Assembly (NCBI GenBank): GCA_900498245.1
Contig: LS998015.1
Coordinates: 983,225 to 1,047,224, forward strand
Length of the DNA: 64,000 nucleotides
Source of the DNA: Candidatus Zixiibacteriota bacterium
Lineage (GTDB): Bacteria > Zixibacteria > MSB-5A5 > GN15 > PGXB01
Direction of reading: 5' to 3'
Every line of letters starts with the position of its first letter. Positions within the stretch are counted from its first letter, which is position 1. Below the pieces are notes generated by a model that ran no database searches, was not told the DNA's origin, and saw nothing but the letters and a program-made list of their open reading frames with translations. Shown piece by piece: positions 18,312 through 22,930 of this stretch. The position numbers and the translations under genes were made by a program.

Positions 18312-18700
18312 GTCGGGTCTCGAGGCCATGAAAACCGGGTAACCCACCCCTTGGGGTGGGCCGGGTGCCCCACAGCTCTGCTGTGGGAATGACCGATTAT
18401 GCGTCTTTGTCAAGCCTTCGAAGGTTGGCCTCGAGGTCCCAAAGGGACCGAGAAACCCGACAACTCCATTCCCGTGAGCAGTCCGGCAATTGCCGGATCC
18501 GGCCGCTGAATTGAATTGCGACCTTTCCATTTTATATCATTCCGGGCTTAACCCGGAATCCAAATATATTCGTGGGTCGAAATCCCCCGAGTCCGGCTCC
18601 TGCCGGACGACGGGGTTTCGACATCTTGATTTGCACCAGCCGTAGGTCGGGTCTCGAGGCCTTGAAAACCGGGTAACCCACCCCTTGGGGTGGGCAGACC
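18312..18700. repeat. Mosaic of at least six intergenic palindromes
   Basis: Nearly 390 bp consist of hairpins. There are two copies of a TAGGTCGGGTCTCGAGGCC unit each followed by GTAACCCACCCCTTGGGG (18337-18360 and 18671-18694). Others are CCCACAGC/GCTGTGGG (18369-18387), the perfect TCCGGCAATTGCCGGA (18482-18497) and ATTCCGGG/CCCGGAAT (18539-18559). A GAGAAACCCGAC motif near 18450 is complementary to the GTCGGGTCTC start, suggesting a long outer stem. No coding potential seen. Confidence 0.75.
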
Positions 18701-19879: not shown

Positions 19880-21985
19880 CTATATCTTAATGTTTGCCTT
19901 TTCCGCGAAATGTTCGTCTATGAGATATTTCCAGTTCTCCTCATTTATCTCGTCATAGCCGATATTGCTAATCATGTAGTCAATATTATGAATTGGAATA
20001 TTGTCTTCAAGAGGATTATAAAATACAGCGCCAGATTCAATTATTCTTTCTAAAAGTTTACTGTCCTTAAGCATCCAATTAGTCTCACGTACGGCAATAT
20101 CTGCAACCTTAAGGAATTCGCAGCCATCTACTATGTGAATGGAGTTCTCAATCCAATTTTCAGTACCTTCAACAGAAATGTTTTCTGGTGCGAAATCACC
20201 CTGTGCCTTACCTGGCCGATATTTTTCACTGGATGCGACCAAAATTACCTTAGTATTTGGCTTATCAACAGGTCTATTCCTTCTGAATTCACGTACAAGA
20301 TTCACAATGGCGCAATGGCCGGCTGAATGCCAAAAACTATTACTACTTATGCCATTTGCACCTACCATGACAAAGTCAATATTGTGATGTGCGATTATGT
20401 ACCCAGCGATTATATCCGGGATTAGAATTATGTTGCTAAAGTTTCTTCTATGCAAATGCAAAGCATACTGACTACCGTCATGGTACACATAGTGGTCGCC
20501 AGTAGCAGTCTGCGTTTTTGGCTGCCCTTCGCATACATAAATATTGATTATCTTTGAAGTTTCCTTTTCAATTTTGCTATTGTAAACACCTTGTGGGTCT
20601 TTAATACCATTATTTTTTAGAAATGAATCACGAAATCCACAGAGCGCCACCGTTACCAATTCACTATATCCATAGAGTAAAATGTTTAGACAATATTTAT
20701 CCAATAACCCTGGATAATTTGCTTCCATAAAATGTTGGGCATTAGTTCTTATTTGAGAACGAATTGACTGATGTTTTCGATAACAATCAGAAATTGACCT
20801 TACAAATTCCTCTTTCTTTCTTTTTTCATTAATCATTTTCCTGAAATTATCTACAATTACTTTTAATCCCAAATGGCATGGGCGGGCCTGGATTGGTCCA
20901 TTCTGAAGAGACTCAAGGAAGCCATTGAGTTTATTCAGGACCTCTTCGTCTGGCTTTTCTGAAATAATATTCTTGGATACTTTGGACTTATGTAATTCGA
21001 CACCCAATATATTTCCAATTGACACAATTATCATTTCTAGTAATTTTGACGCGCTAGGATTCATCATAATGTCATAATTTACAACTAACTCTTTCAGGTC
21101 ATCCAATGTTTGCGTATCTAGAATTATGGATGAGTCTGTACGTGATATATCTAGATAAGGACATGGCCCATATTTCGTGAGAACATGCGAAACACTCTGT
21201 AATTCGCTACGCAGATCCTCTAATACCAGATTGGATACAGATAGCAGCTTTTTCCTGAGTGGTTCAGTATCCGACGAATCGGTGTCACCATTTAAGACGG
21301 GCTTTTTGAATTGGACTATGATGTTGCGATTTTCGGCATTTGGCTGTATTCCGCTGACTATTCGGCTTTTTATCCAGTGCAATTTTATATCGAGAGGGAT
21401 GCCATAAGTTAAGCATACTACGTAGGCTTCCATTGGAGCCCGGGATGACCCCACATCAAGAGCATCTGCCAGTCTTAGATATGCAGCGAGAACTTTTAAC
21501 TTCACCCGCTCCAAGCCCACCAGAATATATTCTTCACATTCTTCAATAGATGCTTTCCTGCTATGAAAGCGACAGAGCCTAGAAATTGGCTCTTTATCCT
21601 GCTCATTTAGCCCAAGAGCGGCCCAATGATCAACCACAAATTTTTCTGAAATTAGATGATGTCTATTTCTTATTTCGCTATATGCAAGCGCCTTTTCTGG
21701 ATATACTTGCGAGACAGTAGAAGTTAGCATACCAAGATCGTGAACCCAGGCTGAAACTAGCAAGTAAAACCGTTCTTGAATTGTAAACGCTTCTGATCGA
21801 TTCTCCGGAATGAGATGATGAATCATGTCCTCTACTGCTTTAAAGTGAGATATCCCGTGTGGTGTATAAAATGGCAATTGAGTATATTGTTGTTTATCCT
21901 GATCACATAGTTCCTTCACTCTATTTTTTACAAATTCCAGATAACTGGAATAGTATTCGTCCAACCAATTATCCCACGATTTCAT
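19880..21985 (-). CDS. Fusion protein: HD phosphohydrolase domain plus eIF2B-like domain
   Basis: A 701-residue cytoplasmic protein. Residues 40-200 form an HD domain with ligands H47, H82-D83, H109/H110, H141 and D174; HGISH, WVHDLG and LRLADALD resemble the Ppx/GppA-type HD module. Residues 350-700 match the eIF2B alpha/beta/delta - MtnA - ribose-1,5-bisphosphate isomerase fold: ILLYGYS (436-441), IYVCEGQP (482-489), DIIAGYII...FVMVGANGI (524-546), VILVASSEKYRP (580-591) and NPLEDNIPIHNIDYMIS. Where the isomerases have their catalytic Cys (THCNS), this protein has YGYS as in eIF2B alpha, so ligand binding rather than isomerisation is likely. The gene looks clearly A/T-richer than its surroundings and stands alone between repeat mosaics. 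Function unknown; the fold calls are by eye. Confidence 0.75.
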   Translation of the reverse strand: MKSWDNWLDEYYSSYLEFVKNRVKELCDQDKQQYTQLPFYTPHGISHFKAVEDMIHHLIPENRSEAFTIQERFYLLVSAWVHDLGMLTSTVSQVYPEKALAYSEIRNRHHLISEKFVVDHWAALGLNEQDKEPISRLCRFHSRKASIEECEEYILVGLERVKLKVLAAYLRLADALDVGSSRAPMEAYVVCLTYGIPLDIKLHWIKSRIVSGIQPNAENRNIIVQFKKPVLNGDTDSSDTEPLRKKLLSVSNLVLEDLRSELQSVSHVLTKYGPCPYLDISRTDSSIILDTQTLDDLKELVVNYDIMMNPSASKLLEMIIVSIGNILGVELHKSKVSKNIISEKPDEEVLNKLNGFLESLQNGPIQARPCHLGLKVIVDNFRKMINEKRKKEEFVRSISDCYRKHQSIRSQIRTNAQHFMEANYPGLLDKYCLNILLYGYSELVTVALCGFRDSFLKNNGIKDPQGVYNSKIEKETSKIINIYVCEGQPKTQTATGDHYVYHDGSQYALHLHRRNFSNIILIPDIIAGYIIAHHNIDFVMVGANGISSNSFWHSAGHCAIVNLVREFRRNRPVDKPNTKVILVASSEKYRPGKAQGDFAPENISVEGTENWIENSIHIVDGCEFLKVADIAVRETNWMLKDSKLLERIIESGAVFYNPLEDNIPIHNIDYMISNIGYDEINEENWKYLIDEHFAEKANIKI

Positions 21986-22185: not shown

Positions 22186-22930
22186 GGAAACCCGGTAATC
22201 CACCCAACGGGTGGGAATTATCGGCCGAGCTGAGCCATGCAATATAATTTTCCAATTTCATTGGACGCCTTTCGTGGTACTGCAAGGGCAGGTCGGAACC
22301 CCCGCGGTTCCAAACCGGGTAACCCACCCCTTGGGGTGGGAAATTATAATTCCGTCGCATCGTGCAAAATCGATATCAATTTGGTGTGACTCGTCTCATA
22401 GGGCCAATAGGTACAGAGTGGTCTATAATTATGTCTATACATTGTCAAATGCCGATTGGTCTTTGCACCGGCAAATTATCGCGCAATAATGCGCCAAAAC
22501 ATTCCTGCAATCCACACCCGTTCAACCGCTTGAGGGAAAAGACGCAAAAAATGGGGCCCCCTTTTGTATCAGAAAAGCGAACCCAAATATCCGCCATCCC
22601 CACACCGCCCATTCCCTTACACCAAAAATCAATCGGTTTGTTTCCTTTTGGAGAAAGTTATATTCTTGTCCCACAACTGGTAACCCACCCCTTGGGGTGG
22701 GCATCAGGAAGACATCCCGCGAAAGAACGGCGGACAGGGATCTGGCAGTTTGCCGGATTATCGCACAGGGAAAGACAATCGGTGGGCCGGACATTCTTGT
22801 CCGGCTCCCTGGTGAAACATGGCAATGTCCTCCCCACCTCTGGGGGAATTTGTGTCGGGAGAAAAGGAGGGCGGACGCGCAGGTCCGCCCCTACAACTGC
22901 TCGGGCAGATGTGGACATCTGCCGCGCACA
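22186..22930. repeat. Third palindrome mosaic upstream of the HD-eIF2B gene
   Basis: The 1-kb gap before the HD-eIF2B gene holds, in order: a GGTAATCCACCC/GGGTGGG unit (22194-22215), GGAACC/GGTTCC and a GTAACCCACCCCTTGGGG unit (22317-22340), and a second identical unit (22679-22701). Then come GCCGGACA-ttct-TGTCCGGC (22786-22805), GGGCGGAC-N6-GTCCGCCC (22869-22890) and GGCAGATGT-gg-ACATCTGCC (22904-22923). Open frames crossing it are mostly antisense extensions of the serine hydrolase gene and look non-coding. 21986-22185 is A/T-rich and should hold the HD-eIF2B promoter, but I cannot fix one. Confidence 0.7.

Follow-up and report, generated by a model that had tools for sequence, protein, structure and literature searches.

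An HD-CE phosphohydrolase domain fused to an eIF2B-like module in Candidatus Zixiibacteriota and other bacteria and archaea: a candidate metabolite-gated conflict protein

Overall organization of the fusion gene

The gene described here lies in a window of 64,000 nucleotides (the whole stretch of DNA analysed) from a Candidatus Zixiibacteriota bacterium (contig LS998015.1, positions 983,225 to 1,047,224). Translation of positions 19880 to 21985 revealed a plus-strand frame full of stops and a stop-free minus strand encoding 701 amino acids, with an ATG start preceded by a good ribosome-binding site (GGGGAGGAAACCATCATG). An initial annotation had given exactly these coordinates and read the product as an HD phosphohydrolase domain joined to an eIF2B-like domain; all the motifs it listed are present. 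The protein consists of an HD-CE phosphohydrolase half (residues 1-290, positions 21116 to 21985, minus strand) and an IF-2B half (residues 290-701, positions 19883 to 21118, minus strand). Including the window protein, 12 intact fusions were found, and there is hardly any doubt that the fusion and its family are real. The pairing of HD-CE with IF-2B is undescribed in the literature searched, as the initial annotation had supposed.

The HD-CE half

The Pfam family HD-CE (PF24391) matched residues 37-247 with 120.3 bits against a cut-off of 27 (E = 1.5e-34), which assigns the initially annotated HD domain to this family. The H...HD...D metal-ligand set of HD phosphohydrolases is intact in the window protein. 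His47, His82-Asp83, His109 and His141 are invariant in all 12 fusions and Asp174 in 11 of them; across 18 HD-CE proteins, His47, His82, Asp83, His109, His141 and Arg171 are invariant and Asp174 is nearly so. The ligands proposed initially are therefore all retained except His110, which is not conserved, so that His109 is the ligand at this position. The half modelled alone by AlphaFold2 from the 18 HD-CE proteins reached a predicted local distance difference test score (pLDDT) of 90.6. Among solved structures, the HD-like domains of PPX and GppA come closest in fold, and weak Pfam matches to Ppx-GppA_III agree with these fold neighbours. The HD domain is probably the catalytic effector of the protein. 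Asp174 is replaced (by Ile) in one fusion, L011, from a 'Proteobacteria' metagenome-assembled genome (MAG), which also carries an extra metallophosphatase effector (L011:8855-11644). This single sequence suggests an effector hand-over, as if its HD domain were no longer the effector.

The IF-2B half

The IF-2B half comprises a helical N-terminal lobe followed by a Rossmann-like lobe, with the residues R368-P-C-H371, G439-Y-S441, D503-G504, D524, G542-A-N544, H553-x3-H557, K588, R633 and NP-x2-D661. The Pfam IF-2B family (PF01008) matched residues 357-550 with 31.7 bits against a curated cut-off of 22.4, and most relatives scored 42-93 bits (maximum 92.6), placing the half in this superfamily as initially proposed. 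AlphaFold2 modelling of the whole protein from a 12-member alignment gave a mean pLDDT of 76.9 and a predicted template modelling score (pTM) of 0.66. The model contains the expected Rossmann-like lobe, and all 50 PDB matches listed by Foldseek have the IF-2B fold, being ribose-1,5-bisphosphate (R15P) isomerase (R15Pi), eIF2B subunits or MtnA. The best match is R15Pi from Pyrococcus horikoshii, with an E-value of 4.5e-10 and a TM score of 0.71 by target length. A family profile of the half, searched against PDB sequences with hmmsearch, ranked R15Pi (1.4e-16) ahead of eIF2B delta (4.8e-14), MtnA (2.9e-13) and eIF2B alpha (1e-11), and profile-profile comparison with MtnA/R15Pi homologues from these genomes yielded probabilities of 98.8-99.5. 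The half belongs to neither enzyme class. It scores 14.3 bits with the NCBIfam model salvage_mtnA against a cut-off of 279 and has Gly for the catalytic Cys, while matches of relatives to TIGR00511 (NCBIfam) fall far under that model's cut-off and both R15Pi catalytic positions are changed. The likeness to eIF2B regulatory subunits, which are part of a guanine nucleotide exchange factor decamer acting on eIF2, is one of fold and pocket.

The ligand pocket

In the P. horikoshii enzyme PH0208, Cys135 and Asp204 carry out catalysis, Ser137 and Lys240 contact the 5-phosphate, Arg65, Gln166 and Lys215 the 1-phosphate, and Asp204, Asn214 and Lys215 the sugar (PMC5789824). Alignment with the PDB sequences pairs Cys135 with Gly439, Asp204 with Asn544, Ser137 with Ser441, Arg65 with Arg368 and Lys240 with Lys588 of the window protein. 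The segment N214-K215-x-x-T of PH0208 aligns to H553-S/T-x-G-H557 of the fusions, so that the Asn-Lys-x-Gly-Thr motif is replaced by His553/His557. Gly439, Asn544, Ser441, Arg368, His553 and His557 are unvarying in all 12 fusions. Lys588 is invariant in two MAFFT alignments; in the 12-member alignment, three members need a one-residue shift for the Lys register. The initial annotation had noticed the replacement of Cys by Gly, to which the replacement of the second catalytic residue, Asp by Asn, is now added. Since both residues are replaced in all 12 members, the isomerase catalytic pair has been lost family-wide, and the module is almost certainly a dead isomerase. Two other candidates were rejected. 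Cys485 as a new catalytic Cys is invariant in nine members and is Leu in two others (L062 and L063), and Asp524 as the isomerase Asp was ruled out because the PDB alignment puts the Asn of the PH0208 D204N mutant at Asn544.

That D204N mutant is the best-scoring PDB sequence for the IF-2B profile, and it still binds R15P with a Kd of about 10 uM (PMC5789824). Human eIF2B-alpha, which lacks the isomerase Cys, binds sugar 6-phosphates in the ancestral pocket, and assembly is promoted in response (PMC8187479). With the catalytic residues lost and the phosphate-pocket residues kept, the initial proposal of a non-isomerase ligand-binding module holds up, and we infer that the module is probably a sensor for a 5'-phosphorylated sugar or nucleotide. 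The C135A mutant of PH0208 loses R15P binding (PMC5789824), and therefore the ligand of the fusion family is probably not R15P itself.

Distribution of the family and horizontal transfer

The second member (L004, identical to L013) comes from Zixiibacteriota of another genus in the same class as the window genome, with 91.5 bits for HD-CE and 65.7 for IF-2B. Scanning 84,980 species genomes with an alignment of these two proteins revealed full-length fusions in SAR324 (L006), Desulfosporosinus (L007), Formimonas (L008, frame broken), Flavobacteriales (L009), Methanosarcinales (L010), the 'Proteobacteria' MAG (L011), Methanothrix (L012) and Methanosaeta (L014). Three further fusions (L062, L063 and L064) came from whole-genome searches within the phylum to which L011 belongs. 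The family therefore spans Zixiibacteriota, SAR324, Bacillota, Bacteroidota, the phylum of the 'Proteobacteria' MAG and methanogenic archaea. Few genomes carry a fusion: with the search-centre genomes included, the counts are 2/132 genomes in the window's phylum, 3/238 in the Methanothrix class, 4/395 in the L011 phylum, and 1/299, 1/395 and 1/52 elsewhere. The Formimonas member lies in two frames (L008:9992-12131) with the break at a run of eight C, which could reflect phase variation, decay or a sequencing error in the homopolymer.

Identity between the members and the window protein ranges from 21 to 42%, region by region. The tree places the window protein with SAR324, Bacillota and L064, and the other Zixiibacteriota member within the methanogen clade, the latter a strongly supported placement. 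This pattern contradicts the species relationships and thus indicates horizontal transfer. The window gene has a GC content of 0.383 against 0.508, and hardly any gene-length stretch of the window is richer in AT; its GC content at third codon positions is 0.35, compared with 0.51-0.70 in the neighbours. In a relative where the site is flanked by the same ATPase and beta-lactamase genes, other genes occupy it and the fusion is missing. A search of the window genome with PF01008 matched the fusion and also a separate canonical IF-2B enzyme elsewhere (320.5 bits); the fusion is therefore not a replacement of that housekeeping gene.

A dispersed non-coding repeat with 45 matching places genome-wide adjoins the gene at positions 22200 to 22700 (no strand assigned), and related palindromic copies flank the gene on both sides. 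The palindromic motif GGTAACCCACCCNNNGGGGTGGG occurs five times in the window against 0 expected, at 18338, 18672, 19838 (minus), 22318 and 22679, and so brackets the gene. No Rfam RNA or tRNA was found at the gene site.

The rbcL-FBPase site of Methanothrix

Two Methanothrix genomes share flanks of 96.5% DNA identity over 4,065 bp and 94.8% over 8,278 bp and differ in what lies between rbcL and FBPase. One carries a fusion of 672 amino acids, and the other carries, in the opposite orientation, a Trypco1 gene and a fusion of 905 amino acids. The two fusions share 31% identity, and the shorter is nearer to the Zixiibacteriota protein L013 (44%). In eight other Methanothrix genomes rbcL and FBPase are adjacent with nothing between them, and in others unrelated genes occupy the gap. 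The region resembles an insertion hot spot holding two HD-IF-2B cassettes or empty (L012:2902-6348, L014:8277-11916, L066-L081), and a different two-gene cassette is found there in other Methanothrix species (L069, L075, L080). Such turnover is characteristic of accessory loci, those for defence among them.

Domain architectures of the relatives

Several relatives show further domains or partners. L014 has the architecture Trypsin_2-HD-CE-IF-2B, with a Trypco1 gene directly upstream (8.2e-16); in conflict systems, trypsin-like peptidases have Trypco1 as a named partner (PMC7159879). By eye, its Trypsin_2 domain (L014:9134-9900) keeps the serine motif GFSGCP and has TCGY instead of the usual TCAH containing the catalytic His, and it may be inactive. 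L011 has the architecture Metallophos-HD-CE-IF-2B, and its metallophosphatase matched the N-terminal part of the NCBIfam model DS8_antiphage (1.3e-38) and PADLOC PDC-S60 (2e-37). DS-8, a metallophosphatase-NACHT protein, defends E. coli and requires its metallophosphatase residues (PMC13092281). Plasmid matches with L011 involved the metallophosphatase part alone and were rejected as plasmid carriage of the fusion.

HD-CE without IF-2B sits N-terminal to STAND NTPases in L005, L018 and L019. These proteins, fused respectively to nSTAND1, an nSTAND3-like domain with tetratricopeptide repeats (TPR), and nSTAND5 with TPR, are candidate immune proteins, found in a genome related to that of the window, in a Methanophagales archaeon and in a bacterium known from a MAG. 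In addition, the HD region (about 690-910) of the PADLOC model RT_UG24, a defence reverse transcriptase, matched L005, L010, L015 and, weakly, L020; this class probably carries an HD-CE domain. Because of the wiring in L011, L014, the STAND proteins and RT_UG24, HD-CE appears as an exchangeable module of conflict-type proteins, in which IF-2B would take the place of the STAND sensor. The architecture described for conflict systems, exchangeable effectors with partner genes (PMC7159879), is found in L011 and L014; the window protein is HD-CE-IF-2B alone. The fusion is an HD-CE conflict-type protein with an unusual putative sensor.

Proposed mechanism and alternatives

We propose that the fusion is a single-gene, horizontally mobile 'conflict system' switch, in which a dead binder of the eIF2B/R15Pi type gates an HD phosphohydrolase; for this whole model we put the probability at roughly 0.5. 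The IF-2B module would sense a 5'-phosphorylated sugar or nucleotide, as eIF2B-alpha does sugar 6-phosphates, and by analogy with hexameric R15Pi and eIF2B it is probably oligomeric. Upon stress or phage infection, a shift in the metabolite level might lead the module to activate or release the HD domain, which would then hydrolyse a nucleotide or nucleotide signal and cause growth arrest. In relatives, a metallophosphatase or trypsin-like effector would be added in front. An immune function of the family is slightly favoured on circumstantial grounds, namely effector swapping, the Trypco1 partner, the DS-8 homology, the HD-CE match in the RT_UG24 profile and allele swapping at the archaeal site. 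The broader idea of a new prokaryotic immune sensor class on the eIF2B/R15P-isomerase fold, whose dead pocket for a sugar phosphate or nucleotide would register changes in metabolism caused by infection and control interchangeable effectors (HD, metallophosphatase, protease), is more tentative; such a class would be the prokaryotic counterpart of eIF2B in its role as a metabolite-tuned stress hub.

Several observations weigh against this proposal. The window protein matched no PADLOC defence model, and among relatives parts alone did. No defence island was found around the window gene or around most relatives, whose neighbours are mostly ordinary genes, and no fusion copies were found in the phage records, plasmid records and viral contigs of the collections searched. 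The signalling or defence role guessed at in the initial annotation gains independent circumstantial support and stays a candidate role. At the level of the pocket, loss of substrate binding in R15Pi C135A means that the change of Cys to Gly may alter binding too (PMC5789824), and His553, His557 and the other new invariant residues could signal a new enzymatic activity rather than sensing.

The housekeeping or unrelated neighbours and the missing phage and plasmid carriage would suit a metabolic regulator outside immunity, in which the HD domain adjusts a pool of nucleotides or phosphate esters and IF-2B serves as an allosteric sensor for nutrient or stress homeostasis; so would the nearest HD structures, since PPX and GppA are enzymes of polyphosphate and alarmone metabolism. 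Such a role fits poorly with the patchy, strongly horizontal spread, the gene swapping at one site, the conflict-type effector fusions with the Trypco1 partner and the canonical IF-2B enzyme retained by the window genome, and we consider it rather unlikely. Alternatively, His553/His557, His371, Asp503, Asp524 and Lys490 might form a new active site, with the HD domain doing a second step or removing the product. In proteins with just 21-38% identity to the window protein, Arg368, His371, Lys490, Tyr501, Asp503, Gly504, Tyr507, Asp524, His553, His557 and Arg633 are family-specific invariants, several of which replace R15Pi ligand contacts (Asn214 by His553, Lys215 by Ser/Thr554). However, a conserved ligand pocket predicts equal invariance, and the module has lost the two ancestral catalytic residues, as has eIF2B-alpha, which is known to be a sensor and not an enzyme; a new enzyme seems improbable. 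The R15P isomerase fold and the direct adjoining of rbcL in L012 and L014 also raised the question of a partner of archaeal RuBisCO and the AMP pathway. This link was rejected and is very improbable, as two unlike cassettes in opposite orientations occupy a site at which eight related genomes have no insert; moreover, in the neighbourhoods read, rbcL does not adjoin the bacterial members, and both R15Pi catalytic residues are lost.

If the proposed switch is correct, the fold of eIF2B, through which the eukaryotic integrated stress response is controlled, would have been used independently in prokaryotes as a sensor wired to a hydrolase and immune-type effectors. Because the isomerase residues are lost and the pocket is kept, the candidate ligands are few (5'-phosphorylated sugars, nucleoside monophosphates and R15P) and the point mutants to make are precisely defined, making the sensed metabolite and the effector chemistry directly testable.

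Comparison with known systems

The fusion family shares homologous effector or partner domains with DS-8 (PMC13092281) and the Trypco1/trypsin systems (PMC7159879) through L011 and L014. It differs from DS-8 in having no NACHT or STAND NTPase, and the window protein has no extra effector. With the HD-CE (PF24391) multidomain proteins, including the HD-CE/STAND NTPases, it shares the HD-CE domain and its metal ligands; those proteins have a STAND NTPase and TPR sensor half, whereas the fusion family has the IF-2B module there.

R15Pi (PH0208; TIGR00511) is the best PDB match by both profile and fold and has the full IF-2B fold in common with the family, together with the equivalents of the 5-phosphate Ser and the 1-phosphate Arg65 and, up to a one-residue shift, Lys240. 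In contrast, the fusions have Gly/Asn for Cys135/Asp204 and His/Ser-Thr for Asn214/Lys215, the extra invariant residues Lys490, Tyr501, Asp503-Gly504 and His557, and the junction to HD-CE. The alpha, beta and delta subunits of eIF2B have the same fold and have likewise lost the isomerase Cys, whose position in eIF2B-alpha holds Ala in human and Gly in S. pombe (PMC5789824); by analogy, the pocket of the fusions is likely a sensing rather than a catalytic one. Compared with eIF2B, however, the fusion is a prokaryotic single protein, with Asn544 at the Asp204 position and His553, and its output would be an HD enzyme instead of the assembly of a guanine nucleotide exchange factor.
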